Assembly: GCA_964017185.1 (NCBI GenBank)
Contig: OZ024869.1
Span: forward strand, 2,998,501 to 3,062,500
Length of the DNA stretch: 64,000 nt
Reading direction: 5' to 3'
DNA from: Rugalucina vietnamica
Lineage: Eukaryota > Mollusca > Bivalvia > Lucinida > Lucinidae
Made by a program: the position numbers and the translations under genes. Positions 10,487 through 61,300 of the stretch are shown here, in pieces. Under the pieces are notes generated by a model. The model was given only the letters and a program-made list of their open reading frames with translations. It was not told where the DNA came from and made no database searches. How positions within the stretch are numbered: position 1 is the stretch's first letter; every line of letters begins with the position of its first letter.

Positions 10487-11532
10487 TATGCCCCCAACTT
10501 TTAGTATTTTTATGCCCCCAACTTCGAAGAAGTTGAGGGGGCATATTGGTTTGGGTCTGTCCGTCCGCGCCCGTGCGTGCGTCTGTGTGTCCAGTGCGAA
10601 AGTTACGCTTACACTCAGCCAAGAACCGTTAGAGCTAGGATCTTGAAACTTGGTATGTAGTTTGTATATGAAAATTAAGAGGACCTGTATTTTTTATTTC
10701 AGGAAAATTCTCTGTGAGATTTGTGTCCCTTTTCAATTCTTGATAAAGTGAACAGATAGCGGGTACCTTGTGTGCGCAACTCCTCCTACAGTTTAATACC
10801 GATTCGCTTGAAACTTTATAGATGTTGTGACCATGCTTTGAAGATATGCATATTGTTTGGATATAATCCTCAGCTTATTTTTATCACTTTTTTCGCAATT
10901 TGAACTTAGCCATTTTTCGGGCATTTTGACAATGAAAGTGAATGGACAGTGGGTACCTTGTGTGTGCAACTCCTCCTACAGTTTAATACCGGTTCTCTTG
11001 AAACTTTACAGATGTTGTAACCATGCTTTGAAGATATGCATATTGTTTGGATATAATCCTCAGATAAGTTTTTGTCACTTTTTTCGCAATTTGAACTTAG
11101 CCATTTTTCGGGAATTTTGACAATGAAAGTGCATGGTGGGTACCTTGTGTGCGCAACTCCTCCTACAGGTTAATACCGATTCTCTTGAAACTTTACATGC
11201 TTTGAAGATAATTATGCATATTATTTGGATATAATACTCGGATTATTTTTGTCATATTTTTTCACAATTTGAACTTAGTCATTTTTTCGGGCATTTTAGT
11301 GAATGGATAGAGCCTGAGGGTACCTTGTGTGCGCAACTCCTCCTACAGTTTAATACCGATACTTTACAGACATTGTGACCATGCTTTGAAGATATGGATA
11401 TCGTTGGGATATACTCCTCAGATTAATTTTGTCACTTTTTTGCAATTTGAACTTTTCAGTTTTCAGACATTGTCACACCTTGAAAGTGGCGTATCAGTTG
11501 GGGGCATAGTTTTTCATAAACACATTTTCTAG
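10487..11532 (+). mobile_element. HINE-like element, TATGCCCCCAAC family
   Basis: The 5' motif TATGCCCCCAACTT (10511) folds onto AAGTTGAGGGGGCATA. A GTCCGTCCGCGCCCGTGCGTG tract (about 10557-10580) is followed by about four diverged units of roughly 185 bp holding GGTACCTTGTGTGCGCAAC and TTGAAACTTTACAGATG. The inverted end motif AGTTGGGGGCATA is at about 11497-11509, and a CTAG lies at 11529-11532. The 5' motif also occurs once more at 10487, 24 bp upstream, so the start is doubled. It lies inside a copy of the dispersed repeat. Non-coding; a derivative of a Helitron/helentron is inferred from this plan. Confidence 0.75.
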
Positions 11533-12479
11533 TTTTCCCCAATCTCGTTTTTTTTTTTTTTTTTTTGTATCTGGAATTTCTTTCTGACTGCGCCATTTCC
11601 TTATCATTGCTTCTTTTAACTTCTCGATCTTAAACACGGAAGACAGGGCAGTATTCCAAAGCATTTCAGACTACCATTGTGAAACGTTTCAACATTCCCT
11701 GTTCCTGGTTCTTAAGTCGTACGAAGGCATCTAGGCGTTTTGTACGAAATGTAGGTGGGATCGCCGCTCAGTGGAATCTATCCTTTGTTCACGAGCTTCC
11801 CTGTACGTAGGTTGGCCATTGATTAAGTGGACACTGTGTAAAAAGAATTGGACACTGGAAAATCCTGTGTCATATTGAAAATGGACTTACCTCAAACAAA
11901 AATAGACTTCCTTGTATAGCTCTCTACTATCAAATGCAATGCAGTTCCGTCGTGTCCCGCACAAGATAGCAAGTGTACATATCTTTTATTTGCATAAGCT
12001 CTTCAAAATATCCGTTTGTGGGTGATTAAGCCGTATATGATTACAAATTATAATTCATTTGTGACATCGAGAAAATACCTCCCAATTTATCTTCTATATG
12101 TCTCAGGTATTCTAAATACACAGGTAGATAAAATCAAATACAGGGGAGTTCAATCTAGCTTTCTCTTTTTGACAGTCGTGAACGATTTACATTCGAGCAG
12201 TCCACGATCAACTTTAGACTCCATGGATATTGATGTCTAATTAGGATTTAGTTTGGGTTTCTATTTAGTTTCTGAGTTGTCACAATAAACAATGAAACTT
12301 TTGATAAATCAAGTTTTTCTCTATGAAAAAGATTGCGTGTCTTGCTCTATTTTGACCTGATTATTAACATGATCTTGTGAGAAGAGATGTGTTCTACACA
12401 GCGCCTGTAGCTACAAACGATCATTTAGATTTGACCGATAATCGTGATAACGCTATATTACTAATACATCTTCATAGTA
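11533..12479. other. Remnant of dispersed repeat, then gene-free sequence
   Basis: The first 100 bases carry a T run (11551-11566) and the right part of the interrupted dispersed repeat. From 11640 on I see no supportable feature. Confidence 0.45.
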
Positions 12480-12725
12480 TGATGTCGCATCGTGAGAAAA
12501 CCGGTTTTTTGCCAATGCGAAAACAAAGGCGCGGATCAGCTTCGCAGTAACTGCGAAGCTGATCAGCGCCTTTGTTTTCGCTACACGGATAGTACAATTT
12601 CTCTTCTTCTTATATCCGAAATTTCAAGCTTCTAGCCTGTTTCTCTGACTGTACGTACGTACATGTCGGTTTGTGTCAGACCCGGTCGGAAATCCCGAAG
12701 GCCCATTTTCTCGCGTCGCGGCTCA
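12480..12725 (+). mobile_element. Palindromic GAGCCGC MITE, CCGG type
   Basis: The 5' end is slightly diverged (GTCGCATCGTGAGAAAACCGG). The central palindrome GCTTCGCAGTAACTGCGAAGC is intact, with AAATTTCAAGCTTCTAG in the body and TCTCGCGTCGCGGCTCA at the 3' end. Confidence 0.88.
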
Positions 12726-13004
12726 AATATAGGTTCATCTACTTGACAATTTTGACCAGAGTACTTCATGAAAAAAAACTCGAATGAAGCTTACGACACG
12801 GTAGCTGGGCCGGTGGAACTGATCAGTTTGCGGATAAAGCATTTTCTTCTGAGTTTTAGAAATCTGTCCTTATCCCTTTACTTTGTATACTTGGCGATAA
12901 GTCATTATTACAAACAAATAAATCATATTTTTATACATTAAAAATACTCATGCCAAAGTAATAACGGGGTTGGATCTGGAGAGGAGGAGAATACACACAA
13001 TAAA

Positions 13005-13328
13005 CATAAATAGAAAGGTGACATGAATAGCCTAAGACAATCGGAGGCCTAAATAGGCAAATGAAATTTAATGCTGCCAAATGTCATTCAATGAGGGTGA
13101 CTCGGCACCTCCCTATCAATCAAATACACATTAACTACTCACTGCATCAACAAACATTGGAACAGGATGAGTCCGCCAAATACATTGGATTTACTATTAC
13201 TGACAACTTGGAATGGGGTCAACATGTTTCTGCAATTTCTTCTAAAGCAACTAAGACTTTTGGTTTTCTTTGGCGCAATTTGGCACTTGCACCTCGGCAT
13301 ACGAAGGAAGTTGCATACCAAACATTTC
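13005..13328 (+). pseudogene. LINE reverse transcriptase fragment, left part of a copy split by another LINE
   Basis: Reads MKFNAAKCHSMRVTRHLP and onward to RNLALAPRHTKEVAYQTF, the region just after the RT catalytic core of CR1/Jockey-group LINEs. It is clearly homologous to the minus-strand LINE at 13329-15440 (that copy reads MKFNVSKCHSMRVTRLHP) but lies on the opposite strand. The sequence picks up again at 15441 with LEDSAPIWHP, where the same protein would continue. The two pieces are therefore one older LINE interrupted by the minus-strand LINE. Confidence 0.8.
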
Positions 13329-13503
13329 TATCTATCTTCTGATACTGAGTCGATCAATTTCTGATCATCACCTCAGGTGTGGGGTGGGTGGCTAAATTTA
13401 GAATTTAGTCAAGGGAAAAGAAAACATTTGGGGTGGACCATTAAAACTATTTACAAGATATAGATGAGAGGCATACTAAAACGCATGCCTCTGGGCTAAT
13501 GAT

Positions 13504-15036: not shown

Positions 15037-15114
15037 AGCGGCTTTGGAGGGGATTTCATCATCTGATTCGCGAGTGAAGGCTGACTGAAACTGCCTATAA
15101 CAAATATTAGCCTT

Positions 15115-15422
15115 ATCCCAGTATTGATCCCAGACGCGTCTTTCTTAAGGGACTTGACAAATGACCAAAACTTTTTTGCCTTTTCATTTTTTCGGGGACA
15201 ATCGGGATCAGGGTTATCATTTTCAAAGGAGAAGATATTGGTAATATGCTTCCAATATGCATCTCTAATGCTCTTTTGAACATGTGCTCTGAACCGTTTG
15301 TAATGGTTCTTAATGTCAGGGCTGCTTGACTTGCGAGCACGAAAGTAAAGTTTATCACGTTTCCTTATCAAGCGTTTGATCGAGCTATCGATCCATGGTA
15401 AGCTATATTTTGTCTTGGTCAT
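15115..15422 (-). pseudogene. LINE linker between endonuclease and RT, frameshifted
   Basis: Encodes LPWIDSSIKRLIRKRDKLYFRARK and then KAKKFWSFVKSLKKDASGI, a pattern typical of the linker between endonuclease and reverse transcriptase in this LINE group. It should run straight into the RT frame. One frameshift near 15120 separates them: after it the RT frame reads DKANICYRQFQSAFTRESDDE. Confidence 0.8.
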
Positions 15423-15440
15423 TTTTGATGGAATAAACCT

Positions 15441-15560
15441 TTCAATTGGTTCGCCCTCAGCTCGAGGATTCAGCTCCTATTTGGCATCCCTAAAATGAAA
15501 CTGAAACAAAAAAGTACAGGTGGGTCTGCAGGCGATGGCATAATACCAGTAGCGTCGATA
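15441..15560 (+). pseudogene. LINE fragment, right part of the split + strand copy
   Basis: TTGGTTCGCCCTCAGCTCGAG and the following bases read LEDSAPIWHP then a stop, then NETET. This matches LEYAAPIWHPYHETKIE of the intact copy and continues directly from 13328. Similarity fades beyond GGTCTGCAGGCGATGGC at about 15523-15539. Confidence 0.7.
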
Positions 15561-16326
15561 CCTCATATGGGTATAAGATGGGTATACAGCTAGCTTATGG
15601 GTTTTCCCAGAATAAGCCCATACAAAACCGATTTGTCAAACATGCATACATCCTGTGTATGTTGGACCTATCTGAGACCTTTCTATCTAATATGGGTGTC
15701 TGAGGTGGTTCGGTGTGATTTAGAAATGATACTTTGGGTGTTTATTAGGAGATTTGGGGTGTCCTAGATTGGTGTCTAGGTGAATTGGTGTCTCTAGATG
15801 GGGTGTTAGGAGATGTTTGTGTTAGGAGATGTTGTTTAACGTTGTTTGGGCTAGGTTTGGCTACATTTTATGAGGCTTGGGTGTTACATCGCTCTTAATT
15901 CTGATTTGAGATATAATAAATGTGGATGTTTGTTTATGCTTTTGAGGTGGTTTTGAAGTGTTTTGTGTGGCTTTGGATATTTTGGGAATGGTTTTGTGTG
16001 TTTCCACGGACCCCTGCATGGCACATACGGCTCAAAAAGGATAGTTTCGGTTTGTCAAATGTAAGAAGAATTTTCATTGGTTGAATGTTTGACGCACCGC
16101 CATTTTCAAGAAAATCGAAGAAAAAGAAAAAGAATTAACAAGCTTATATTTGCCTATACTGAAGGTCCTAATCCTAATAGAAATATTGATTGTTCCAAAT
16201 TGGTTCAACATGACATTTTCATAAGACAAATATCTTTTTGTGTAAAAGCAGAAAGTACTGTTTTTAGTTCGACATCATTGTCATTGGTTTTCGCGACAAT
16301 TTTTGGAACAAAAACAAAGTTGTAAT
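15561..16326. other. Strand-asymmetric G+T-rich stretch, then gene-free sequence
   Basis: From about 15660 to 16010 the + strand is rich in G and T and poor in C, with many GGTGT, TTGGGTG and TAGGAGATG strings. No gene or known repeat is recognisable. The remainder up to 16318 shows nothing supportable; GTTGTAAT at 16319-16326 is the target duplication of the element that follows. Confidence 0.45.
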
Positions 16327-27121: not shown

Positions 27122-28626
27122 TTTAGCTCACCTGAGCCGTTAGGCTCACAAGGTGAGCTTATAGGATGGCCATGATCCGGCGTCCGTCGTCGTCGTCCAC
27201 CATTTTCAAAGATCTTCTTCTCTGAAACCACTTGGCCAATTAAAGCCAAATTTTATATGAAGCATCTATGGGAAGGGGGAACCAATGTGTTTATAAATAA
27301 TCCAGGTCACATGACCAAGATGGCTGCCATGCCCATAAATGGTAAAAACCCTTCAAAATTCTTCTTCTCTGGAACCACTGGACCGATTTCAACGAAACTT
27401 GGCATGAAGCATTTGGGACTAGAGTACTACAATGTGTTTATAAATTATGACCTTTGGATGACCTTGACCTATTTTACGGCAAGGTCAACATAGGTAGGCA
27501 ATGCATTTGAATGGGGAAAATTGTTAGAATGTCATTTGAAAGGTAAAACTTGCAGGAAATGGGCAAATGGACTGAAGGTAGGTAATTCTGAAAAAAATTG
27601 GACCCAGGGGTTGGTCTGCCCCCACCCCGGGGCAGTATACTTGTATATTACAATAATATTCAAAGATCTTCTTCTCTGAAACCACTTGGCCAATCAAAGC
27701 CAAATTTTATAGCAAGCATCTATGGGAATGGGGAGTCAATGTGTTTATAATTAATCCAGGTCACATGATCAAGATGGCTGCCATGCCCATATATGGTAAA
27801 AACCCTTCAAAAATCTTCTCCTGAACCAATGGACCGATTTCAATGAAACTTGGCATGAAGCATCAGGGACTGAAGTACTACAATATGTTTATAAATTATG
27901 ACATTTGGATGACCTTGACATATATTACGGCGAGGTCAGCATAGGTCGCCAATGCATTTGAATGGGGGAAAACCTTTAAAATGTCTTTTAAAATGAAAGT
28001 CTTGCAGGAAATGGGCAGTATGGCTGAATATTAATGATTCTGAAAAAAATTGGACCCCAGGGGCATATTTGCCCCCACTGTAGGGCATTATACATGTATA
28101 TTACCATACTATTCAAACATCTTCTTCTGTGAGACCGCTTGGCCAATCAAAGCCAAATTTTATGTGAAGCATTTATATAATGGGGGAATCAATGTGTATA
28201 TAAATAATCAAGGTCACATGACCAAGATGGCCACCATGCCCATATATGGTAAAAACCCTTCAAAATCTTCTCTGGAACCGGTGGACGGATTTCGAAGAAA
28301 CTTGATGTGAAGCATCTATGGCTTAAGTACTACAATGTATATATAAATCATGACCCTGTGATGATCTTGACCCAGTTTATGGCAAGGTCAACATTGGTTG
28401 ACCATGTATTTAAATGGGGAAAACTGTTAAAATGTCATTTGAAGGGATTAGCCAGCAGGAAATTGGCAAATGGACAGAATATTGATTATTCTGAAAATAA
28501 AGAAGAAAATGGCCCAAGGGCTTCATCTGCCCCTACACTGGGGTTAAATACCATAATATTCAAACATGTTTATTGGTATATGCAGCAGATCTCAGGTGAG
28601 CATTTACAGGACCATTGGTCCTCTTG
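27122..28626 (+). mobile_element. HINE-like element, AGCTCACC family 1a, inserted in a LINE
   Basis: The 5' hairpin AGCTCACCTGAGCC / GGCTCACAAGGTGAGCT (27125-27159) is followed by GGCGTCCGTCGTCGTCGTCC and three units of about 450 bp. Each unit is itself two related halves, one reading CTTGGCCAATCAAAGCCAAA and the other GGACCGATTTCAACGAAAC, both followed by TGAAGCAT. The inverted end motif CTCAGGTGAGC is at 28591-28601, and the 3' hairpin AGGACC-ATT-GGTCCT at 28608-28622 is followed by CTTG. Removing it restores the LINE reading LLKNLKPNKAAGPDRI, consistent with insertion at a TT dinucleotide without target duplication. Confidence 0.85.
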
Positions 28627-30113: not shown

Positions 30114-30445
30114 AGGACAGTCAGTTGGGTCCAGTGACTCAAAGCTATTTGAAGTATATGTAGGGTTGAAAGTGATTCATCAAACAGTGCAGAGCTAAAA
30201 TTTGGCAGTCCACAGTTGAGGCATACCCATGAATAGCTTTCATGTTCACACAAAACTTTGTGAACCTCTACACCTAAACCTTCGCACTCTATGTGGAACC
30301 AGAGATCACAACTTTCACATTGGATGCCATTTTGACCATTCTTCACTGCTTTGCCGCAGCTGCCACAGGGGAATTTTGGCGGTTGGGGCCCAGGGTTGAC
30401 TTCAATGTCATGTGAGAGGGCCAACAGTAACCAAGTATATACTTA
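30110..30445 (-). pseudogene. LINE N-terminal region: 2A-like motif and PHD-type zinc finger
   Basis: Reads YTWLLLALSHDIEVNPGP, then a PHD-like C4HC3 pattern: CGSCGKAVKNGQNGIQCESC, WFHIECEGL, WVCLNCGLPNFS. Such fingers occur before the endonuclease in several invertebrate CR1-type LINEs. The frame runs up to a stop just upstream of the hydrophobic lead; no ATG lies in between, so the true start is lost or the frame continued from an upstream ORF. The link to the endonuclease frame is frameshifted near 30110. Confidence 0.8.
30386..30409 (-). other. 2A-like ribosome-skipping motif DIEVNPGP
   Basis: The codons read DIEVNPGP, matching the 2A consensus D-[V/I]-E-x-N-P-G-P, and follow a leucine-rich lead (WLLLALSH), as in known 2A peptides. 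2A sequences are known from APE-type non-LTR retrotransposons of marine invertebrates, including molluscs. Here it would have released the upstream peptide from the finger-endonuclease-RT polyprotein. Confidence 0.75.
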
Positions 30446-30535
30446 GTTTTAAGGATAGCAGCTCATAGTAAGAGATAGGAAAATCAATGCAGAAAACTAA
30501 ATTATGACTTTACACAATAAAGAGAAAGAGTTGGC
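30436..30535 (-). repeat. LINE 5' region, one half of an inverted pair
   Basis: Sequence just upstream of the 2A motif on the minus strand. A diverged copy lies inverted at 32118-32232 (shared landmarks on the + strand here: ATACTTAGTTTTAAGGATA, CAGCTCATAGTAA, TTTACACAATAAAGAG). The pair flanks the HINE-like element at 30900. Confidence 0.7.
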
Positions 30536-30899: not shown

Positions 30900-31701
30900 T
30901 ATTATACCCCCGGCATTTATGCCGACGGGTATATAGTTTTCGCTTTTCCGTTCGTCCGTTCGTATGTTCGTTCGTTCGTTCGTTCGTTAGTTCGTTTCTT
31001 CGTTCGTAATTCCGGAACGTTCGTAGAATTTATGTCAAAGTTTTGGTTAAAGTTTCTCTAGAGGTGTATATCTCATGAACCAATGGTCAGAAACAATTCA
31101 TATTTGGACCATAGGTACCCTATAGGGTTTGCTTTGTTTCCATGAGTTCGGACCCCAGGGTCCATGCCCGGGGGTGGGGCTGGAGGTCAAAATCTAGGTC
31201 ACCTTTAAAATGTGCTGTTTACAATGTTAATGTTTCTTCTCTTAAGTTCATATCTTAACAAACAATCATAGGAATGTATTCTTATATAGTTCATAGATAC
31301 CCTTTAGGGTTTGCTTTCATATTCAATGTCACCAAATCCTGGTTACCGTCCCCAGGGGTGGGGCTAGAGGTCAAAATCTAGGACACATTTTTATATGATA
31401 TATACCATGATAAACTTTCTGTAAGTCTGTTTTCTTGACATCCACTAAGTCTTGCCAGAACGCATTCAGACTTAGACCATAGGTACCATGTAAGATTCAA
31501 GGGGGGGGGGGGGGGGGCTAGAGGTCAAAATCTAGAACTTCTTTAATAATTGTATTTTCTGTACTTTTTTTTACTATCATGTTAAGAAATCATTCATACT
31601 TGCCCCATAGGTACTCTATAAGGTTTGCCTTGTTTCTAATGACATTAGACACTAGGGTACATGCTGGGGGTGGGGCTAGAGGTCAAAATCTAGGACATCT
31701 T

Positions 31702-31743
<42 letters not shown>

Positions 31744-32071
31744 ATGACATTCTAATTTCATTTCAATCTAGGACTGAGGACCTGACCCCAAATGTCCGCG
31801 CTTATGTCCTAGATTGGGTATACACGTCAGCTCTGTATACCGCTCTAAAATAGATATGTCATTCTAAAACTACACTTTCCCATGTTTGTATGTAAAGTAC
31901 TTTACACTGCTTATTTCTAAAAGTACTTGATGAGGGTACTGTCTTGCGTTGGTGATGTGAGGTTCAATGTCAGGGGTGAGCATGTGCCGGATTGCTTAGG
32001 TAGGGGGTAGGGAAGGGGGCTTGGTGGCTATCAGCCGGGGGTATACGTGCCTCTCAAGGCACTTTTTCTAG
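30900..32071 (+). mobile_element. HINE-like element, TATACCCCCGGC family
   Basis: The 5' motif TATACCCCCGGCATTTATGCC folds onto GACGGGTATA. Next comes a CGTCCGTTCG(TTCG)n tract (30950-30995), then about four diverged units with GGGTGGGGCTAGAGGTCAAA, AATCTAGG and CATAGGTACC landmarks. G(16) and T(38) runs occur inside. The inverted end motif GCCGGGGGTATA (about 32034-32045) is followed by the hairpin GTGCCT-CTCA-AGGCAC (32047-32062), five T and CTAG (32068-32071), then TTTT: a good match to a Helitron/helentron 3' terminus. No coding. Confidence 0.8.
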
Positions 32072-32117: not shown

Positions 32118-32232
32118 GAGTATGGTTTTGCAACTCTTTATTGTGTAAAATCATTAGTTAGTTTTTTGCATTGAATTCCCTATCTGTTACTATGAGCTGT
32201 TATCCTTAAAACTAAGTATATACCCAGAAATA
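32118..32232 (+). repeat. LINE 5' region, other half of the inverted pair
   Basis: Inverted, diverged counterpart of 30436-30535. It diverges after AACTAAGTATATACCC, where the minus-strand copy goes on into the 2A motif. Confidence 0.7.
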
Positions 32233-36105: not shown

Positions 36106-39100
36106 ATGCCTTCATCAGTTATTCCCCTGAAGGTGGCAGTGAGAGCCAGGCCTCTGATACCGAAGGAGCTGGACGAAGGATGCCAGTCCTGTCTGACATT
36201 CGCCCCGGGGGAGCCACAGATTATTCTTGGGAAGAACCGAGCATTCACTTATGACTATGTCTTTAAGCCAACTGACCAACAGATTCCTGTATACGAGGAT
36301 GCCGTTAAACCTTTGTTGGTCCATATTTTCAAAGGTATATATTTGAGTTACCGCTTAATGTATCATACAGTTAAGCTTCTCAGATCAGCAAGACATCTGC
36401 CAAGTCTGATAGAAGTTTTTGCTACAAATAGTGGTAGAATGTTAGGCTCCGAATGGAGAGGCATCAGGAAAACTTGTACGTGAATTAAATGCCCCCCATT
36501 AAACCCCATTTTTATATAAAAGAACTGGGGTTTGCAGGGGTATACCTAATTTTCTTATTTTTGATCCAAAACATATATTGCGGGTACTCGTTAGAACCGC
36601 CTCGCGCCGAGGCGGTTCTAATGTGTACCCGCAATGTATGTTTGAGCCAAAACATTCAAAAAATCAAAACTTTTCCAATGAAATTTTCGATATACATGTA
36701 TTCTTCTGAAAAAAATCTCTATATTGCATGGGCAAGTTTTAGTAATGTCAAGGAATCAAGTGTTGCTGTGTTCTGAGACACATTAACTCCCCTCAGTACT
36801 GGTTAACACAGGCTCCATTTAGACATAGACATGGCTAAAAGTTGTTGACTGGTCTGACATTAAATTCAGTACATACATAAGTTGCATTTTGACAGCAGCA
36901 TACTGATACACATAGTTGTTAAACTCCAAGGAAGGATTATATTTTACAATTATCAAAAGTTTCTAAAGGACTTTTAAGTGCCTTCTCCATTTTAACAGGT
37001 TACAATGCAACTGTGTTGGCTTACGGACAGACTGGGTCGGGCAAAACTTTCACAATGGGCGGCGGCTACGAGGCCTCACTGAAGATGGACCCCGAGGGTA
37101 TGGGGGTGATACCCAGGATTGTCCAGGAGATCTTCCTCAACATGGATCAGAATGAAGAATATGAATACGCGATCAAAGTATCATACCTAGAGGTACATGA
37201 TATTAATAATCTTGAGACGCATAGTAAACATTCAGAAGGTGATCAGTTTGAATATCGGCATGTAGCATCTAGTACTAGAGTACTTGAATGTTTACATAGA
37301 GTACATTCTTATTCACATAGTCAGTTCTCAAAGTTCTTAACTAGATCTTTATTCATTCATGAATACTCGACGATGCTGCCAAATCAAATAAGATTCATTT
37401 ATGATGCCAATGAACTCACTACGAATTTACCATGAATTTTTTAATCGTGTAATTCTTAGATATCTCCCACAGATTATAAATGAAGACCTCCAAGACCTGC
37501 TAGTAAGCAGCAAAAAAGACTCCCTCAACATTAGAGAAGATAACGGAGAGATAAAGGTAGTTAAGCTGTTGAAGACCTTTTTAAAAATGAGCTGCAATAG
37601 GTTTGACACAAACCAACCTGTACAACCAAGAAGATTGCCAGAAGCTTGAAATTTTGGATTTAAGAACAGGGATTTTCTGTGTAGCGAAAACAAGAGCTGA
37701 TCTGCTTATGTCGCTAGGAAAAGCTCTATAGTCCTGACTGACCATCTGATTACTGGTTAACCTCTTGAAAATTGAGCCGCGACGCGAGAAAACCGGTCTT
37801 CGGGGTTTCCGACCAGGTCCGACACAAACAGGCCTGTACAAGCTCAGAAAAGAGCTAGAAGCTTGAAATTTCGGATTTAAGAAGAAGAGAAATTGTACTA
37901 TCCGTGTAGCGAAAACAAAGGCGCTGATCAGCTTCACGGTTACCGCGAAGCTGATCTGCGCCTTTGTTTTCGCCTAGACAAAAATCCGGTTTTCTCACGA
38001 TGCGGCTCAATTCTGAGCCTGACTAGGATTGATTAAGGCAAACCAACTGTACATATAAGCCTTAGTTATTTAAGCAGGTATGTAATTTGTAGCACATTTT
38101 GGATGTCATGACACCCATATGTTTGTGGCAACTATGAATTGGAGGCAACATCCCGGTATGACCATATCTTTTGACTGGGACTGTAAGCAGGAAATCAAAC
38201 AAAACTTTTATGGCATATACTATGTTACTACAGATTCCTGGCCTGAAGGAGATATCAGTGACCTCAGCAGAGGCTGTGATGAGATGTCTCGAGCAGGGCT
38301 CAGTCAACAGAACAATATAATGTACTATGATATTACAGATCCCCGGCCTGAAGGAGATATCAGTAATCTCAGCAGAGGCTGTGATGAGATGTCTGGAGCA
38401 GGGCTCAGTCAACAGAACAATATAATGTACTATGATATTACAGATCCCCGGCTTGAAGGAGATATCAGTGACCTCAGCAGAGGCTGTGATGAGATGTCTG
38501 GAGCAGGGCTCAGTCAACAGAACAATATAATGTACTATGATATTACAGATCCCAGGCTTGAAGGAGATATCAGTGACCTCAGCAGAGGCTGTGATGAGAT
38601 GTCTGGAGCAGGGCTCAGTCAACAGAACAGTCGGATCAACAGCTATGAACAACACCAGTAGTAGATCACATGCTATATTCATCATCAATATTGAACAGAA
38701 ACACAAAGAAGACATGTAAGTCTAACCTAGACTCTTAAGTAAATGTAGTTATTTATTTGTGATTAAGATTTAATACATTAAACAGGTTTGGAATAAAATT
38801 GATTTTAGGGGAGCAAGTTAGCACAGTAGTTAATAGGCCATACTCCAGATTAAGATATTGGGATTTCAAATGCCTCTGGTGCCGGGTTGTGACTTTGAGC
38901 AAGACACCCCATAGTACTGGTTAATATCCAGGAAGCTGTGGTTCCACATTCCAATACATGTATTACTAGTAATTGTTGACTGGGGACATTAAACCATGAA
39001 ACGAGGAAACAAACAAAAATCAACTTTTGGTTTTAGATAGAATTTTCTGACTGATTTTAAAGTTTCTATGCTTTGAAACAATGTCAGTTTTCTTATATTT

Positions 39101-48100: not shown

Positions 48101-51100
48101 TGAATGTCATTTTGATCAAGTATGAACTAGAACAAACAAATAGTTTGCTTGGACTCACATTAACATTTTAGTGAATGATCCATTGAAATGGCACTGAATG
48201 AAAGAAATTGATTTGTAATTAACACATGTCAGTAACACTACATTCTAAAATCTACCATTACAGAGACAATATGAGGAGAAGATAGCATCACTACAGACAG
48301 AGAGAGATGAACTACATACCAAACTAGAAGAGGCACAAACCAATACTGCTGCTATGAAGTAAGTGGATTTAGGATATTGTACCTAAAATCCAAAATTTGA
48401 GTCTCTAGCCTGCTGTAGCCTGATGATTACATTTGAGCCGCGACGCGAGAAAACCGGTCTTCGGGGTTTCCGACCAGGTTCGACACAAACCGACCTGTAC
48501 CAGCTCAGAAAAGAACTAGAAGCTTGAAATTTCGGATTTAAGTAGAAGAGGAATTGTACTATCCGAGTAGCGAAAACAAAGGCGCTGATCAGCTTCGCGG
48601 TTACCGCGAAGCTGATCTGCGCCTTTGTTTTCGCATAGGCAATAATCCCGTTTTCTCACGATGCGGCTCATTTGTGTCTGTGTCAGAAACTATGAAGATA
48701 GTACAAAGTGGCTATGATAGGCAAAAAGCATTTGAACTGTATATTGAAAAACAATAAGTTTGGCATGTGCACAAGTTAATGTCCTAGAACAATCTTCACT
48801 TGAAGACAAGACCAAATTTATTAGCTCACCTGAGCCGTTAGGCTCACAAGGTGAGCTTATAGGATGGCCATGATCCGGCGTCCGTCTGTCGGCCGTCGTC
48901 CTTCAGTCCGTCCGTCCACAATTTCAAAGATCTTCTCCTCTGAATCCGCTTGGCCAATCAAAGCCAAATTTTATATGAAGCATCTATAGGAAGGGGGAAC
49001 CAATGTGTATATAAGAAATCCAGGTCACATGACCAAGATGGCCGCCATGACCATATATGGTAAAAACCCTTCAAAAATCTTCTCCTCCAGAACCAGTGGA
49101 CCGATTTCAATGAAACTTGGCATGAAGCATCAATGGCTCAAGCACTACAATGTATATATAAATCATGACCCTGTGATGACCTTGACCTATTTTATGGCAA
49201 GGTCAACATAGGTCACCCATGCATTTGAATGGGGAAAACTTTTAAAATGTCATTTAAAGTGAAAGTTTTGCAGGAAATGGGCAATAGGACTGAATATTAA
49301 TGATTCTGAAAAAAAAATTGGACCCCAGGGACTCATGTGCCCCCACCCTGGGGCAATATACATGTATATCTCCAAAATATTCAAATGTCTTCTTCTCTGA
49401 AACCGCTAGGCCAATCAAAGCCAAGTTTTATGTGAAGCATCAATAGGAAGGGGTAACCAATGTGTATATAAATAATCCAGGTCACATGACCAAGATGCCT
49501 ATATATGGTAAAAACCCTTCAAAAATTTTCTTCTCCAGAACCGGTGGATAGATTTCAACGAAACTTGGCATGAAGCATCGATGGCTCAAGCACTCCAATG
49601 CATATATAAATCATGACCCTGTGATGACCTTGACATATTTTATGGCAAGGTCAACATAGGTTGCCAATGCATTTGAATGGGGAAAACTTTTTAAAAGTCA
49701 TTTGAGGTGAAAATCTTGCAGGAAATGGGCAGTAGGACTGAATATTAATGATTCTGTAAAAAATTGGACCCCAGGGGCTCATGTGCCCCCACCCCGGGGC
49801 AATATACATGTATATCTCCATAATATTCAAACGTCTTCTCCTCTGAAACCGCTTGGTAAATCAAAGCCAAATTTTATGTTAAGCATCTATAAAATGGGGG
49901 AATCAATGTGTATATAAATAATCTAGGTCACGTGACCAAGATGGCCGCCATGCCCATATACGGTAAAAACCCTTCAAAAATCTTCTTCTCCAGAACAGGT
50001 GGATCGATTTCAACGAAACTTGGATTGAAGCATCGATGGCTAAAGCACTCCAATGTGTATATAAATCATGACCCTGTGATGACCTTGACCTATTTTACAG
50101 CAAGGTCAACATATGTCGCCAATGCATTTGAATGGGGAAAACTTTTAAAAAGTCATTTGAGGTGAGAATCTTACAGGAAATGGGCAGTAGGACTGAAAAT
50201 TAATGATTCTGAAAAAAGTTGGACCCCAGGGGCTCATGTGCCCCCACCCCGGGGCAATATACATGTATATCTCCATAATATTCAAACGTCTTCTTTTCTG
50301 AAATTGCTAGGTACATCAAAGCCAATTTTATGTGAAGCATCTATAAAATGGGGGAATCAATGTGTTTATAATTAATCTAGGTCACATGACCAAGATGGCC
50401 GCCATGTCCATATACGGTTAAAACCCTTCAAAAATCTTCTACTCTGGAACTGGTGGACCGATTTCAAAGAAATTTCGCATGAAGCATCGATGGCTAAAGT
50501 ACTACAATACAATGTGTATATAAATCATTACCCTGTGGTGACCTTGACCTATTTTATGACAAGGTCAACATAGGTCACCTATGCATTTGAATTGGGAAAA
50601 AATTTAAAAAGTCATTTGAGGTTAAAATCTTGCAGGAAATGGGTAGTAGGACTGAATATTAATGATTCTCAAAAAGTTGGACCCAAGGGCTTATATGGCC
50701 GCACCCCGGGCAATATACATGTATATTACTAAAATATTCAAACATCTTCTTCTCTGAAACCGCTTGGCCAATTAAAGCCAAATTTTATGTGAAGCATCCA
50801 TAGGATGGGGGAACCAATGTGTATATTAATAATTTAGGTCACATGACCAAGATGGCCGCCATGTCCATATATGGTAAAAACCCATCAAAAATCTTCTTCT
50901 CTGATAGATTGATTTCAAGGAAACTTGGTATGAAGCATCGATGGCTAAAGTACTCCAATGTATATATAAATCATGACCCTGTGATGACCTGGACCAAGTT
51001 TATATAATATGGCAAGGTCAACATGGGTTGCCTGTGCATTGGAATTGGGAAAACTGTTAAAATGTCATTTGAAGGGAAAAGCCAGCAGGAAAATGGATGG

Positions 51101-54100
51101 AATATTGAAGATTCTGAAAAAAAGAAAATGGCCCCAGGGCTTTATCTGCCCCTGCACTGGAGTTAAATACCATAATATTCAAACATGTTTATTGGTATAT
51201 GCAGCAGATCTCAGGTGAGCGTTTACAGGACCATTGGTCCTCTGGTTTTGAGTCACAAGGTAGATAGCAATAAAATTAAGCTGTATGAAGCTTTTGAATA
51301 CTGCACATACTAATAGCTATTGACCGCAGACACTGATCTGATCATTTCCAGATTCCATGGTCAATGTTAAGACTAAGTCTTGTCAGTTAGTGATGAAAAT
51401 CTGTGCACTAAACATTGACAATCTTGACATGAAATTAATCTTGGACATATAAGAAAGCTGTCGATAGACAACAACAAATCAGAGTCTGCTGGTAGCTGTA
51501 TGCGAGTACAAAGTAGATTCAACCATTTGAAAGTCTTATAAAAATAAAAATATAAGTGGATGATATTGTATTTTCCAATAGTTTGAATCAGACACGTTTG
51601 TCAACTTTATATAATTGGGAGTATTGCCGCAGGTTGAGTGAGACTCGACGTAAGCGACTAGTGGAGTTAGAGCAACAGATATCAGAGTTCAAGAAGAAAT
51701 TGAATGAACAGAAGAACATTGTCAAGCTGAAAGAACAGTCAGAGAAGAAAGTCTCGGCCATGAATACAGAGATACAGGTTAGATACATGGCAGTGCAATC
51801 AATACAGCTCAATTTTTCAAAGCAACCTTGATAAGCATGTGTTATGTGTGCTTCATAAAATTTGTAGTAATGAAAATATAATTTTGAATTACATATCCAT
51901 GTAGTATTGAACATGTTAGTGTGTAATCGAACATATTCATGTGCTATTGAATGTTACATTTCTGCTTGGTAATGAGCATATTGGTTTAGCCCGGAACATG
52001 TTTGTATGGCTTTGAACATGTTTGTGTGCTACTGAACATGTTTGTATAGCATTTGACATGTTCCCCTTCTATTGCACATGTTTGTGGGCTTTTGAACCTG
52101 TTTGTATGGTACATGTATTGAACATGTTTGTCTCTTATTTTCCATGTTTGTGTGTTGTGGAACATGTTTTTCTAGTATTGAACATGTTTGTGTGGTATTT
52201 CTCAGGCCCTGAAACAACAGAGAGTCAAGTTAATGAAGCAGATGAAGGAAGATAACTTGACATACAAGAAATGGAAACAACAGAAAGATAAGGAAGTTTT
52301 ACAGCTTCAGCAAAAGGTAAGAAATGAGAATGTGTGTGGGAAAACCAACAATCTGGGTTTCTGACCAGGTCCAACACAAACCAGCCTATGCAGTCATAGA
52401 AGCAGGCTAGAAGCTTCAAATTTTGGATTTAAGAAGAAGAGGGACTGTACTATCTGTGTGCAGTTAAAGGTTATCATGAGGCCGGGTCTGCGCCTTTGTT
52501 TTTGCATAGTGTTGGTTTTCTCATGTGGCGGCTCAAATAGGATCTATGCCGAGTGGTTTTTTTTTTGTGTTCACTATTTACAGACAAGATGAATCTGAAC
52601 TTGTAAACGTGTATTCCTCCTGTTAAATGATCAGGTTGAATGTATGCATGGAAAACTGAAAACGGGGAGCCAGTGTTAGATTGACAGCAGCTTCAAACTT
52701 GGAAAGACAAACCAGTCCGCTTAGTTATTTATGCTATCTGGAGCATTTAAGATTTGAGAAAGACAAAAAACTATACATTGTTGTGCATAAACAGACATTA
52801 TCTACACCCAATCTTAGTCTTATATGAGCCGCGACGCGAGAAAACCGGTCTTCTGGGTTTCCGAACAGGTCTGACATAAATCGGCCTGTACAGTTACAGA
52901 CAAGGGCTAGAAGCTTGAAATTTCGGATTTAAGAAGAAGAGAAATTGTACTATCCGTGTAGCGAAAACAAAGGCACTGATCAGCTTCGCGGTTACCGCGA
53001 AGCTGATCTGCGCCTTTGTTTTCGCCTAGGCAAAAATCCGGTTTTTCTCACGATGCGGCTCATATGTGTCTTGTGTGACTATGTGTTTTTGCACGTAAGC
53101 AGCATTGTCAAATGAGGATACATAAGCCACTTATTTCCTGTAATTGTTTGCATGTTTGTCCAATAATAGCAGCATATAGATATTTCCTGCAGTTCAAGAT
53201 GCTCAAGACAGGTTTTAGGAGTAAACAAACTCTTGCAGGGGGTAAATGGATACACTGATGAGGGCAGGCCTTTCTGTAAGCAGAAAAGCGTTGGTTGATT
53301 TTAGTTGAAGTCAAATACAAAGTTAGGGCAATAAAATCCATTTTTGTTTCAGGATCGTAAGCGCCAGTTTGAGATCCAGAAATTACAAAGAGAGAACCAG
53401 AAACAGCATGCTGTCCTACAGAGGAAGTCGGAAGAGGTAGTTAGTTGCAACATTCTTGAATATTTGCTTGCACAGTGCTTCTGTTATATGAGCTGTGACG
53501 TGAGAAAACAGGTCTTCGGGGTTTCCGACCAGGTCTGACACAAACCGGTCTGTGTAGCTTTAGGAGATGAATAGATGCCTGAAATTTCGGATTTAAGAAG
53601 AAAAGGAATTGTGCTATCGGTGTAGCGAAAGCAAAGGCGCTGATCAGCTGTGCAGTTATTGCGAAGCTGATCTGCGCCTTTGTTTTCGCATAGGCGAAAA
53701 TCTGGTTTTCTCTTGACTCGGCTCATATCAAGAACTCCAAAAGTGTTGATGGGAGTCTTCTAAGTTTTACAATGTGGCAGTGCCCTTTGGAAAGGCATAT
53801 GGAATAGGTAGCAGTGTCTATAAGATTTTTGAAGCTTTATAAGCAAGTTTGAACATGATAGCAAGTTTAAATGTGCGAGAAGCCACAATTCCCAGCAAGT
53901 TATTACTTATACATCTCAGTAAGACTGGTAATATTAAAAACCTCAAAGTCCTAATTATCCGGTACATTATTGTGTATTATTGCTTAAATACCCGTGTCAC
54001 ACGATATTAAAAGCCATATATTAATGAAAGGAAAGCCATGTATTAATAAAGCGATTCTCATGCGCGCATGCTGTTGATGCATGGCTTTTATTTATGTTCA

Positions 54101-57100
54101 TAACCGGGCGCCACACAAAACACGTGCTAATAATGAGTAACTGGAAACTTTCACGCGTATGAAAAAGTGATGAGGCTGTAAAATATAGTGCGCCATTATT
54201 TCTTTCGTTTTTGCAGCATTTATGCAATATTAGATGCTTTTGATGATTTTGTCATTCATTAACATTCCCTAGGTCTCTAGGGGAATGTTGAAAACCTTGG
54301 GCTACGCCCTCGTTTCTCAACACCCCCCTCGGGACCTAGCTAATGTTAATGAATGGAAAATCATATTTGATCCCTATATTCTAGGCAGCAGCAGCCAATA
54401 GAAGGTTGAAGGAGGCTCTTGCTAAACAGAAGAAAGTCTTGGAGGAGAAAAATCAGAAGTTTGAGAAATATGATAACACCAGTATTGGAAATAGGATCAA
54501 GGTTAGTACTGGAACATAACTCAAACATTCAGAGATTGAATGGTTTCCACAAATGAGCAGTGTCACATGAAAACCGGTCTCCGGGGTTTCTGACCAAGTC
54601 TGACACAAACAAGCCTGCATAGTCACAGAAAAACGCTGGAAGCTTGAAGATGTACTACCTATGTGGTGAAAACAAAGGTACTGAACAGCTGTGCAGTATC
54701 TGCTTGATTTCAAATCCCGCCAGGGATGCAGGCTTTTGCTAAGAACTTCTATTCGTAAGAGTTTTTGTCACATTTATGGTCTATGTTATCACAAAGTGAC
54801 ACTGTCCTTTCCAGAAACTATTAAGTTATGAGCTAGATGTACAAGTAGGAATCTATGAGGCAAAATATCACCGTGATGAGTTGATGACAGATAGGAAAAC
54901 TCTCTCAGAAGAACTTAAAAACCTGAAAGAATCTCTGGATGATAACGGCCCTCCGTCAAAGGTGAGAGCTGCAGGATTTATAATGAGCCTGTGTGTGAGA
55001 AAACCAACAATTTGGGTTTCTGACCAGGTCCAACACAAACTGGGCCGCACAGTCACAGAAGATGGTTATGAATGAGATGGCTTGAAATTTTGGATTTAGA
55101 AAGTAGAGGAATTGTTTTCACCTATGCAGATTGTTGGTTTTCCCATGCGGCATCTCATATTAATGAAAATTCATAAAAGTTTTTGAGAGAAGTTGCAGGG
55201 CACCCCTGGTGAAGTATTGACAATTTGGCATGTCACTTGTAAACCATTCAGATTCAGGCAAAGATTGCCGACATTACATATCCCAGGCATCTATCCACAT
55301 ATTTTGTAAATTGACTCTATGAAAGATACACTTTGACTGCTATGTTCATCAGCTAATTTTAGAAAAAAGCAAGTTCGTGTCTCCATCTCTGACCATAGCT
55401 GTTGAGTGGAACACATAACAACAGCACCACCATCAATAACAAATCAGTTACTGGTAAGAGAATGTTCACCCAATAAACTACTTGTGTGATTCCTGTAGAA
55501 ATCTGACATTCATAAATATAGAAGAAAAAAACACAAACTTTATTGTTACAGAAAATGGCATGGATGGATGACTCCGGTACGAAGTGTCAGACGAGTTTCC
55601 AAGAAGAGGAGAAGAGAAAAAAGATAGAAGAGCTTCAACATCAGATAGAATATAGGTAGAAACTGCATATGCGAAAACAAAAACGCAGATCAGATTCTAA
55701 ATGTCATACAGAAAGTGTTTTTCTATAATTCCGGTTTTAATTATGTCCCCCCAACCGAAGGTGGGGGACATATTGTTTTTGGTGCGGTTCCCGTCGGCGT
55801 CGGCGTCGGCGTCCGCATCGGCGTCCGCGTCCGCGTAGCTTCTTTCTTACGCGATATCTTTTGAACCAGTGGATGGATTTTGACCAAACTTGCATAGATA
55901 CATGGTTGGGAGGGGGGAAAGAGTTGATTAGATTTTGGTGACCTTGACCTCATTTTCAAGGTCACCAGCCCATGAAAACTGATCAAATTAGGTTTTCCGA
56001 CGCGATATCTTCTGAACAAATGAATGGATTTTGAGCAAACTTGCACAAGAGCATTGTTGGGAGGAGGCTCAGAGTTGATTAGATTTTGGTGACCTTGACC
56101 TAATTTTCAAGGTCACGAGTCCATAAAAACTGTTGAAATTAGTCTTCTAACTCAATATCTTGAAAACCAATTGATGGATTTTGACCAAACTTGCACAGAA
56201 GCATTGTTGGGAGGAGGCTCAGAGTTGATAAGATTTTGGTGACCTTGACCTAATTTTCAAGGTCACAAGTCCATAAAGAATGTTGAAATTAGTCTTTCCA
56301 ACGCAATATCTTGTAAACCGATTGATGGATTTTGACTAAAGTTGCACAGAAGCATTGTTGCGAGAAGGCTCAGAGTTGATTAGATTTTGGTGACCTTGAC
56401 CTAATTTTCAAGGTCACGAGTCCATAAAAAATGTTGAAATTAGTCTTTCCAACGCAATATCTTATAAACCAATTGATGGATTTTGACCAAACTTGCACAG
56501 AAGCATTGTTGGGAGAAGGCTCAGAGTTGGTTAGATTTTGATGACCTTGACCTAATTCTGAAGGTCATGAGTCCATAAAACTGTTGAAATTAGTTTTTCC
56601 GATATGATATCTTGTAAACTAATTGATGGACTTTGACCAAACTTGCACAAAAGCATTGTTGGGAGGAGGCTCAGAGTTGATTAGATTTTGGTGACCTTGA
56701 CCTAATTTTCAAGGTCACAAGTCCATAAAAACTGTTGAAATTAGTATTTCCAACGCAATATCTTGTAAACCAATTGATGGTTTTTGACCAAACTTGCACA
56801 GAAGCATTGTTGGGAGGAGGTTCAGAGTTGATTAGATTTTGATGACCTTGACCTAATTCTGAAGGTCACGAGTCCATAAAACTGTTGAAATTAGTTTTTC
56901 CGATACGATATCTTGCAAACTAGTTGATGGATTTTGACCAAACTTGCACAGAAGCATTGTTGGGAGGAGGCTCAGAGTTGATAAGATTTTGGTGATCATG
57001 ACCTAATTTTCAAGGTCACTAGTCAAAAACTGTTGAAATTAGTCTTTCTGACGGGATATCTTGTAAACTAATCGATGGACTTTGACCAAACTTACACAGA

Positions 57101-58266
57101 AGCATTGTTGGGAGGAGGCTCAGAGTTGATAAGATTATGGTGACCTTGACATAGTTTCCAAGGTGACAATTCCATAAAAACTGTTGAAATTAGTATTTCA
57201 GACGCAATATCTTGTAAACCAATTGATGGACTTTGACCAAACTTGCGCAGAAGCATTGTTGTGAGGAGGTTCAGAGTTGTTTAGATTTTGGTGACCTTGA
57301 CCTAATTTTCAAGGTCACGAGTCCATAAAAAAATGTTGAAATTAGTCTTTCCAACGCAATATCTTGTAAACCAATTAATGGATTTTGACCAAACTTGCAC
57401 AGAAGCATTGTTGCAAGAAGGCTCAGAGTTGATTAGATTTTGGTGACCTTGACCTAATTTTCAAGGTTGTGAGTCTGTAAAAACTGTTGAAATTAGTATT
57501 TCCAACGCAATATCTTGTAAAGCAATTTGAAATTAGTCTTTCCAACGCAATATCTTGTAAACCAATTAATGGATTTTGACCAAACTTGCACAGAAGCATT
57601 GTTGCAAGAAGGCTCAGAGTTGATTAGATTTTGGTGACCTTGACCTAATTTTCAAGGTTGTGAGTCTGTAAAAACTGTTGAAATTAGTATTTCCAACGCA
57701 ATATCTTGTAAAGCAATTGATGGATTTTGACCAAACTTGCACAGAAGCATTGTTGGGGACTGGGATAACCTCCCTGAATCATTGTTTTCCTATGCTGAAA
57801 TGTCAGATAAGCACCCCTGCCCCCTGTGAGGTATTGTCATTTTGGCATTTCACCAGTAAACTATTCTGATTCTGAAAAAAGGATGAAAAACATAAATTTC
57901 AGTATTTTTTCAGTGCCTTCAAGTCTGTAAGCACCCAATTTATTGTCTGATCATCACTGAATAACCTCCATTTTTAAGCGCAGGGATGCACATACATACC
58001 AGTTTGATATATATGAGTATCCCCCAGGGAGGGTACTCTTGACATTTTGCTAATACATAGGCTAAGCCCCAGCATCTACTCTGTACCCCCCCCCCAAAAA
58101 AAAAATAACAGTGGATTCTAAAATGACAGTATGACAGTGGATTCTAAAATACCAGGAAAATAAATATTTGTGGGACCCCCAAAAATTACCTACAAAAAAC
58201 TCCATACCCCATCCCCCCCCCCCAAAAAAAAATACTGACTCCCCCCCCCCCCACAAACATAAATTA

Positions 58267-58363
<97 letters not shown>

Positions 58364-61300
58364 TTAAAGGTCAACCTCATTATAACGCTATCTTTGGGGT
58401 CCATGGAAACAGACCGTGTTATAAGTGAACCGCGTTATAATGAGGTTATTCACAAAAGATATATAACAAAATAATTAATTTGGGAGCCATGACATGGCCA
58501 TGTTATATTGAAAACCGCACTATAGTGAGGTGCGTTATAATGAGGTTGAACTGTATATAAAATTAGAGCACTCCATACAGAACAAGATGGTCATGCTGGC
58601 TTGCATAGTTAAACTTCATATCACAAGGTAACTAAACTTCAATTACTAAACGGTTGGGGGGACATAGTTTTCCTCAGAAAACACTGTTTTAATTACTCTT
58701 TTATCATATGACGCCGCTGTTTTCCTGTGAATAACGTCATGTAATAAAAAGTGTTATGACCACATGTGTATTAACACTTTTGCGGGAATATGTAATGTCA
58801 TTGACGACGTCCATTGCAACAATGTAAATTTTCATTGTAAGTATGACCACTTTGAAGGCGATATAATCTATTTTTAAAATCATATGATAAAACAAATCTT
58901 ACACGTGTCTAACGAGCCTTCGGTGAGTTTAATAAGTTTCATATGATATGACCACTCCTATAAGATCCTCTGTTTCTCTGATGATGACATATCATGGCAA
59001 ACACATTTATGCTGATAAACGTATGTGTAATGTTCTTCAAAAACTAAATGAGTAGCAGTGTTAGATTTCTGTTGAAATTTATTCTATAATGAAAAAATGC
59101 TAACTTAACAGCTGACATTTGTTTGTTTACAGAAATATCCAGATCAGTGACCTCCAACAGAAGATATTTGATGCTGATCAAGGTTGGTTATCTTTTCTTT
59201 TCTCTGTAAACTATTTTTGCAAAGTAATATTAATAGTAAAAAATAAGAAAATCCATTCAGACTAATTATGATAACTTGATCTTTACAAAGCCCTGGTCAA
59301 TGGGTCTATCTGTGTGGACGATTTTTGAAGAGAAATATTTTAAAGGGGTCTTGGTCTACCACAGCTAGACAAGGATAAAGTGAAAATCTTTTTCTCCCAA
59401 AAAAGTAAAGGATAAGAAATGTAATGCGAAACTCTTCAAATTCTTCAATATAGTGTATATAATGATCTGTGATGCGAGAAAACTGGTTTTCGGGGTTTCT
59501 GACCAGGTCCTACAGAAACTGGCCTGTACAGTCACAGAAAAAGGCCAGAAGCTTAAGGAAGAAGAGGAATTATACTGTCCAAGTAGCAAAAACAAAGTCG
59601 CTTATCAGCTGTGCAGTAATTGTGTCTTTTTTTCGCATGGGCAAAAGTATGATTTTCTTATGACATGGCTCTAATCATATTTCAGAGGTAAAGGGCAAGT
59701 CTATCAAAGATACCGTGCACACAATGATGGAGGCTAAAATAGGGCTCAAGTGGCTCCTACAACAGGTAGGTAGTCTTGTAAATGAGCCATCCCGTGGGAA
59801 AACCAACAATGTGGTTTCCGAACAGGTCTGACACAAATCAGGCTGTACAGTCACAGAAGCAGGCTAGAAGCTTCAAATTTCAGATTTAAGAAGAAGAGGA
59901 ATTGTACTGTGTAGCGAAAACAAAGGCGCTGATCAGCTTCGCGGTTACCGCGAAGCTGATCTGCGTCTTTGTTTTCGCATATGCAGATTGTTGGTTTTCT
60001 CACGAGGCGGTTCAAATTATGAAGTAAGGTACACCATGGCCTAGAGGTTGAGCATCAAACTCCGAATCAAAAAATCCTGGGTTCAAACTATAATGGGGTA
60101 GGGTGTTGTTTCCTTGAGCAAGACACACTTACTCAACCCATATTTGATGAATGGATTTTCCCATCATTATCATTTGGGTGAGTCCATTTCATTTTTAGGG
60201 GCTTCAGATGTGATTTTTAAATTTCATTCAATCTTTCGATGAAAATTCTTTAAGCAAACAGAATAGCCCCAGATGTGACGCCGCGTTCTGCGGCGTCACA
60301 TCTGGGGCTATTCTGTTTGCCTATGTCCCATAAAAGGGACGCCAGGCTTAAATGAGTTAAGTTCTTGTCAATACTAAGGAAGGCATGGCTTTGTCCCGGT
60401 ATGACTGAAAAACTGTTTCCTAGGACATTAAAGAAAATAATGAAGCGTACGGAAGGAATTGCATTTATGGATGTATGTAAGAGATTTAACTCCAATAATG
60501 ACAGTTTTCAGATAAAAAAGAGTTGTGGTGTGTTTGATAGCAAATCAGAAATTAGCCACTGTCAACTTCATAGCGATGCACCTGTAGAATAAATTAATTT
60601 GAGCCACGACGTGAGAAAAACTGTCTTCGGGGGTTCCGACTAGGTCCGACACAAACCGGCCTGTCCAGCTACAGAAGATAGCTAGAAGCTTGAAATTTTG
60701 GATTTAGGAAGAAGAGGAGTTGTACTATCCGAGTAGGGAAAACAAAGGCGCTGATCAGCTTCTCAGTTACTTCGAAGCTGATCTGTGCCTTTGTTTTCGG
60801 ATAGGCAAAAATCCAGTTTTCTCGTGACGCGGCTCATTTTATGATGATTGGCCTTTCCAATCACGCATTTGTGGTACCATTTGCGTGTTGCCTTACATAA
60901 ATGAGGATTTTGATAGCACTGTCATAGGGTTCCCTGTGTTTCAGGCTGTGTCATTCAAAGCTAATAACAGCCAGCTACGGGTCCAACTCAAGGATATGAA
61001 AGATGATAAAGATGAGTCGGGCCATGAGAATGAGAACTACATAGAGACACTGGAGAAAGATATCGCCGAACTGAAGGAAACACATCAGGCCACTATAGTG
61101 AAACTCCGACAGGAGCATCAGCGTGAGGTACATCAATCTGTTAATTATAAAGTAGATCAGGGTATTATCGGACAAAATTTGGTTTTCTTGGAATTCTGAC
61201 ATTGTTTTCAATACAAAAATCTTAAAAATAATTGTTACCAAAAGTATTAAGAAAGCCGTGTCTTGCAGTCTTTACATCAGTTACCACCTCCTAGCACTCA

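Follow-up and report, generated by a model that had tools for sequence, protein, structure and literature searches.

Results

Four families of putative HINE-type elements

A stretch of 64,000 nucleotides from the bivalve Rugalucina vietnamica (contig OZ024869.1, positions 2,998,501 to 3,062,500; hereafter the window) contains elements of four repeat families, here called A, F1, F3 and F4, whose start motifs are AGCTCACCTGAG, TATGCCCCCAAC, TATACCCCCGGC and TATGTCCCCCCAACC, respectively. We conclude, at a probability of about 0.9, that these would be non-autonomous elements of the HINE type, belonging to the Helentron/Helitron2 branch of rolling-circle transposons and mobilised in trans by the Rep/helicase elements that this genome contains. 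The HINE/Helentron-type identity, already proposed in an earlier note on this DNA, is well supported by termini, targets and layout. Direct support comes from the anatomy of the elements, their fixed ends, T-rich targets without target duplication, the sizes of the families, and the combination of an interrupted 5′ hairpin with uninterrupted complementarity between the 5′ and 3′ ends.

Complete elements consist of a start motif that folds back on itself, a microsatellite of the GTC/CGT type, repeats, the inverted start motif, and a final G followed by T. The inverted motif lies 20, 24, 25, 25 and 26 nt from the 3′ end in the five complete plus-strand copies, which bears out the earlier claim that it recurs near that end; the distance taken as diagnostic for an inverted 3′ subterminal inverted repeat (subTIR) is ∼20-30 bp in Helitron2 or 38-60 bp in mite HINEs. 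Other features of HINE and Helitron2 termini were also found, namely a 5′ subTIR directly at the end and a 5′ hairpin with an asymmetric terminal inverted repeat (ATIR), together with a 3′ palindrome (A, F3, F4 and three F1 copies on contig C5), a T-rich target without duplication (A and F1), and a microsatellite plus tandem repeats, which such elements often but not always have. Canonical Helitron1, defined by a 5′-TC start, an A|T target and no 5′ hairpin, was rejected: the elements start with AGCTC or TAT, sit in T-rich targets and possess a 5′ hairpin.

Target preference was assessed in the window and at 30 family A loci, which were the first 30 places of the 14-mer AGCTCACCTGAGCC on contig C1. 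The start motif stands directly behind a T in the window copies and at 28 of the 30 loci (29 if TTA is counted as T-rich), the preceding triplets being TTT (17), ATT (7), GTT (3), and TTA, TAG and TAT (one each). Moreover, 16 two-ended elements were delimited by known end motifs, five in the window and 11 in a 200-kb stretch of contig C5, and paralogous empty sites were recovered for nine of them (six of family A, two of which are copies of one duplicated site, and three of F1). In eight cases the filled site was longer by one or two bases, mostly T; the ninth had a poly-T flank and a larger gap. These sites confirm the start position for A and F1, and target duplication was not seen at any of the nine. 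Two family A copies in the C5 stretch (L031-L050), at 68650-70637 and 85952-87946, have identical flanks in opposite orientation and represent an inverted segmental duplication.

An interrupted 5′ hairpin beside an intact 3′ motif

In all four families, the 5′ arm pairs with the 3′ motif without a gap over 11-16 nt, whereas the 5′ hairpin is broken after 7-10 pairs. In no case is the 5′ complement arm identical to the 3′ motif. The defect takes several forms. In family A the complement arm bulges by 2-3 nt; F1 and its relatives on C5 have a 2-nt bulge, with different letters and at a different place; F3 has a bulge plus a mismatch; and F4 has its bulge, of 2 nt, in the 5′ arm. Copies within a family are not independent, and only about five separate defects can be counted, in A, in F1, in its relatives on C5, in F3 and in F4. 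Predicted DNA energies ranged from -9.8 to -14.0 kcal/mol in the hairpins and from -15.1 to -22.8 kcal/mol in the 5′-3′ duplexes, loop cost being excluded from the duplexes.

Pattern counts were then extended to the host genome, a 1.09-Gb assembly of 47 contigs; counts for the large families are lower bounds, and places were listed for the first 100 matches. Fixed ends throughout the genome had been set beforehand as a test of the earlier note, and both ends of family A were found in thousands, with none in the reversed controls: 24,514 hairpins (12,306 plus, 12,208 minus strand) and 19,324 3′ ends (9,609 and 9,715). The 14-mer AGCTCACCTGAGCC gave 33,377 matches (16,708 and 16,669) versus one in the reversed control (0 and 1). 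For F1 there were 2,810 hairpins (1,413 and 1,397), and for F4 644 hairpins (307 and 337) and 1,393 matches of the start motif (690 and 703), again versus 0 in each reversed control.

Perfect stems were nearly absent from these families. Against the family A hairpin matches there were three places with a perfect stem (each counted on both strands), and for F1 and F4 there were none. The 2-3 nt bulge was present in all 100 listed family A hairpins, in which the letters of bulge and loop varied, and 99 of the 100 listed F4 hairpins had the length of the interrupted form. Conversely, only nine among the family A 3′ ends had a 2-3 nt bulge at the corresponding place of the motif, and all 30 3′ ends for which the letters were read were gapless. 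Perfect stems of that size do occur in other repeats of the same sequence (16 matches, some being one repeat on both strands), and so are not generally lacking.

In local scans, a regular expression gave 63 hairpin matches, with the gap in the complement arm in 37 and in the 5′ arm in 26; the gap letters being reverse-complementary, we read the latter, as a set rather than one by one, as the same hairpins seen from the opposite strand. Scans of 3′ motifs were gapless in 12 of 12 (strict) and 11 of 12 (looser) cases. With a stricter detector, after rows of fold-back words had been dropped by script and other non-element rows set aside by eye, 15 elements were left and all 15 were interrupted; this detector requires 11 exact letters between the 5′ and 3′ ends but seven in the hairpin, so that the result is biased and the pattern counts are the fair figures. 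Eight runs on one strand of 264 kb of order-4 Markov sequence put its chance level at 0-5 hits per run. Scans for exact words (motif, hairpin and a third copy) were abandoned, since an unrelated fold-back repeat, together with inverted AGGTCA pairs within the arrays, overwhelmed the output.

Pairing of the ends was examined in 99 listed family A hairpins, located below 5.27 Mb of C1. A same-strand 3′ end lay within 6 kb downstream of 45, and a 3′ end on the wrong strand in three; element lengths clustered near 1500, 1955 and 2410, in steps of one repeat unit. Among 100 listed places of the F4 motif, 76 formed 38 inward pairs (one spanning 48 bp) and 24 were single.

Covariation of the 5′ arm and the 3′ motif

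The earlier note had taken the four families to have unrelated ends. Ends do differ between families, but TATGCCCCCAAC, TATACCCCCGGC and TATGTCCCCCCAACC are alike and look related, and two of these elements share the end TTTCTAG. Comparison of F1 with F3 revealed differences at position 4 (G/A) and positions 10-11 (AA/GG), and in both cases the hairpin arm and the 3′ motif carry the matching letters; the extra T of F4 is likewise matched in both. Covariation, the check that had been proposed, therefore holds between the few families compared and is broken in one subfamily of A, which is taken up in the Discussion.

A candidate autonomous partner

Matches to the Rep domain PF14214 were found in the host genome and in none of 14 control genomes. 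All listed rows of the 150 matches scored, out of 409 candidates, were over the cut-off, and many of the frames exceed 2,500 amino acids. Over 4,370 bp, two Rep/helicase copies share 99.7% identity. One frame, of which 1,136 amino acids were read and which is open to the end of the stretch, contains DUF6570 and Herpes_teg_N domains; the Herpes_teg_N deubiquitinase type is already described for Helentrons in the text consulted (PMC9741609). Frames of ∼3,540 amino acids, longer than those of the main group, were observed at C12:18221356, C13:7062354 and C7:53338796, and judging from the sequences several Rep/helicase families seem to be active or recently active.

The region upstream of the Rep/helicase frame resembles family A repeats (66-75% identity over 130-310 bp), and the group of near-identical intact copies carries the first repeat of family A upstream of the frame. 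A chimeric query, in which the family A 5′ end was joined to the Rep/helicase upstream region, gave 3,942 candidates, of which 40 were scored. All 40 hits cross the join. They begin at query base 106 or 124, immediately after the microsatellite, and none of these 40 extends into the hairpin. A Rep match lies 4.1-4.4 kb downstream on the same strand for at least 29 of the 40, a lower bound given that the Rep/helicase list consisted of 30 rows picked by eye from the 150. These similarities make the near-identical Rep/helicase group the likely partner of family A. When F4 motif places were compared by eye with Rep/helicase places on C1, no element was found.

A repeat module common to families A and F4

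A profile of the 151-bp F4 unit matched a ∼105-nt part of the family A units, within a module of ∼110 nt, with a best E value of 2.1e-7. There were nine window hits at E < 0.01, while with the reversed control nothing appeared up to E = 1. A homologous repeat module is therefore carried by two families whose ends differ. A profile was needed here, pairwise alignment of the units being weak, and the iterated profile did not extend to the arrays of F1 and F3; statistical support for the repeat phrase that the earlier note had considered common to all families is thus limited to the pair of family A and the TATGTCCCCC family. The shared module ends in an inverted TGACCTTGACCT...AAGGTCA pair. Inverted AGGTCA half-sites occur in the module at 55841-57718 of the window and in the family A arrays, and presumably resemble nuclear-receptor sites.

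Elements of the window

Seven element starts were checked, corresponding to five complete plus-strand copies, one minus-strand copy and one copy truncated by the window end. The fold-back start motif was present on the plus strand at 27125, 48823, 62880, 10511, 30903 and 55742. The shared architecture described in the earlier note largely holds, except that the 3′ end of the copy at 62880 is outside the window, the F3 array is not reported by Tandem Repeats Finder (TRF), and the 3′ hairpin of the window F1 copy is degenerate. TRF reported arrays for A, F1 and F4, and for F3 only the CGTT microsatellite; the F3 repeats are degenerate, recurring phrases recognised by eye only. A clear 3′ hairpin is present in families A, F3 and F4 and, in the C5 stretch, in three copies of F1 type.

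Family A is represented by plus-strand elements at 27125-28626 (hairpin 27125-27159 with a CAA bulge, array 27205-28497, 3′ motif 28591-28601, 3′ hairpin 28608-28622, terminus CTCTTG|T) and 48823-51245 (hairpin 48823-48857, array 48915-51092, 3′ motif 51210-51220, 3′ hairpin 51227-51241, terminus CTCTGG|T), and by the truncated plus-strand copy at 62880-64000 (hairpin 62880-62913 with an AAA bulge, array from ∼62989). An element with a family A start and other internal repeats occupies 5130-6231 on the minus strand. Position 5130, formerly given as a start, is the 3′ terminus (CTTG|T) of this copy, which starts at 6231; its hairpin is at 6198-6231, and its 3′ motif CTCAAGTGAGC at 5153-5163 has one mismatch to its 5′ arm.

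The F1 element spans 10511-11532 on the plus strand (hairpin 10511-10545 with a 2-nt bulge, array 10761-11454, 3′ motif 11496-11508, terminus TTTCTAG|T). Its start motif is doubled at 10487-10534, 24 bp apart, and the hairpin is at the second copy only (10511) and not at 10487, where it had been placed before. The F3 element, at 30903-32071 on the plus strand, has an interrupted hairpin (30903-30933), a CGTT microsatellite (30949-31007), degenerate repeats, a 3′ motif (32034-32045), a 3′ hairpin (32047-32062) and the terminus TTTCTAG|T. It sits between inverted-repeat arms at 30435-30524 and 32134-32223 (90 nt, 91% complementary), and may therefore lie inside another element. The F4 element, at 55742-58686 on the plus strand, comprises a hairpin at 55742-55772 whose 5′ arm has a 2-nt bulge, a CGTCGG microsatellite (55792-55836), an array of 151-bp units from 55841, a 3′ motif (58652-58666), a 3′ hairpin (58667-58682) and the terminus CACTG|T.

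Two other repeats of the window were also recorded. A tandem repeat at 38218-38629 (105 bp, 3.9 copies, 96% alike) has a unit that is a multiple of three and so is possibly coding. The other is a fold-back repeat of very high abundance (AAACAAAGGCGCTGATCAGCTTCGCGG and the complementary sequence), whose stem is often perfect; it was noted at 37913, 48574, 52965, 59931, 60740 and 62321 and at many places in L031-L050.

Discussion

How such elements might move can be outlined as follows. The Rep/helicase would recognise the 5′ hairpin on the displaced strand and start at the T|element junction, and replication would then pass through the microsatellite and the array. At the far end the 3′ motif, perfectly complementary to the 5′ arm, could displace the weaker, interrupted hairpin by strand exchange; this would join both ends beside the 3′ hairpin and the cut preceding T, and so bring about termination. 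The interruption would prevent the hairpin from being a palindrome identical on both strands, and would ease its opening. The data are compatible with a possible pairing switch between the 5′ hairpin and the 3′ motif.

Several observations weigh against our interpretation or parts of it. Mobility is read from sequence; the candidate partner is tied to family A by a repeat rather than by termini, and its protein is recognised by the Rep domain. In the sample of 99 family A hairpins, 54 had no downstream 3′ end under the pattern used, and 14 had a 3′ end within 6 kb upstream, reflecting clustering. No empty site was found in the sequence searched for the five window copies, and hence none for F3 or F4. 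The F4 copy of the window is flanked by TTTTAAT (55735-55741 and 58687-58693; 7 bp, or 9 counting the element's first TA), possibly a target duplication, unlike the other elements; target duplications are reported for some algal Helitron2 elements in the text consulted (Bao & Jurka 2013, PMC3627910). With regard to covariation, two elements of a family A subfamily have 3′ ends CTTCAGGTGAGC while their starts still read CCTGAG, a third 3′ end (locus L010) departs further, and no family A start with CCTGAA, matching the CTTCAGG 3′ ends, was found in the sequence searched, which argues against strict covariation.

Whether the interrupted hairpin implies a switch is a separate question. An explanation to which we give not quite even odds is that there is no switch: one Rep-binding motif would be placed inverted at both ends, the 5′ complement arm would only provide a hairpin by which the single strand is recognised, and the interruption would belong to the footprint of the protein, the elements still being HINEs. 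The equal motif at both ends, the retention of the hairpin and the recurrence of defects 7-10 pairs from the base would all be accounted for, and a change in the pairing region is tolerated in the CTTCAGG subfamily, whose 5′ arm is unaltered. This explanation alone, however, leaves unexplained why, in all four families, whose defects differ, 5′-3′ pairing runs gap-free through precisely the stretch where the hairpin is interrupted. We propose, tentatively and with the balance of probability somewhat against it, that selection maintains the interruption of the 5′ hairpin as a device general to this branch of transposons. By making the 5′ complement arm unlike the 3′ motif, the interruption would render the hairpin strand-polar and metastable, so that only the arriving 3′ motif gives an uninterrupted duplex with the 5′ arm. 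If so, the end of the element would be signalled, in rolling-circle transposition, when a perfect partner displaces an imperfect hairpin.

It is also conceivable, but we think unlikely, that the interruption is unselected, the master copy of each family having had an imperfect hairpin by chance, which was inherited by thousands. The dependence among copies and the small number of independent defects would suit such a founder effect, but the family A bulge is kept in all listed hairpins even though its letters, its length (2 or 3) and the loop vary, and perfect stems are missing or nearly so in three families, while other repeats do have them. Cut-and-paste miniature inverted-repeat transposable elements with terminal inverted repeats, suggested by the inverted motif at both ends and by the lack of coding capacity in the window copies (for which no detailed search was made), are highly improbable in view of a 3′ motif 20-26 nt inside the end, nine empty sites with extra T and no target duplication, and hairpins at both ends.

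Comparison with known systems

Statements in this section refer to the portions of the cited papers that were consulted. What the earlier note regarded as new, a 5′ end with both the motif and its complement, for which the 3′ motif can compete, was published in 2013 for Helitron2 (PMC3627910): compensatory mutations were described in two related elements, and 5′-3′ pairing was suggested to destroy the hairpin and set the replication endpoint. The Helitron2 group resembles our elements in its 5′ ATIR, 0-2 bp from the end within a 5′ hairpin, its 3′ ATIR 20-30 bp before the end and upstream of a 3′ hairpin, its T target and the suggested competing pairing; figure sequences aside, its text does not say that the hairpin is systematically interrupted while the 3′ motif stays uninterrupted, as seen here. 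Nor did we find a statement of such a genome-wide asymmetry in the literature text searched, figures and supplements excluded. Hairpins at both ends are known in fungal Helitrons (PMC5148889), and palindromic subTIRs or inverted repeats have also been described (PMC4067079).

DINE-1 of Drosophila (Yang & Barbash 2008, PMC2374699; Thomas 2014, PMC4067079) shares with our elements subTIRs (such as TATACCC...), a partially complementary second 5′ inverted repeat, a GTCY microsatellite, central repeats, a 3′ stem-loop and a TT target, and has known autonomous Helentron partners. It differs in sequence and in its largest copy number, 5,424 versus 24,514 family A hairpin matches here, the two being obtained by different counting methods. 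Pearl elements of bivalves (PMC7492417), compared by description only, have a HINE-like layout with ∼160-bp central repeats, and the bivalve HINE layout is described elsewhere as well (PMC7992393).

A close layout is also that of Cg_HINE of the Pacific oyster (Vojvoda Zeljko 2020, PMC7492417), with a subTIR, a complementary inverted repeat, a GTCY-like microsatellite, tandem repeats, a 3′ subTIR, a palindrome, and T-rich targets without target duplication. In the oyster a repeat cluster is tied to one flank pair, whereas here a module is common to two families with different ends; and no autonomous partner could be related to the oyster HINEs, a point left unresolved in that paper, whereas a candidate partner for tandem-repeat HINEs is available here. 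The elements described here are thus mostly a new, very large member set of a known architecture, and their genome-wide asymmetry, countable in three families, makes the replication-endpoint suggestion of 2013 a testable design rule.

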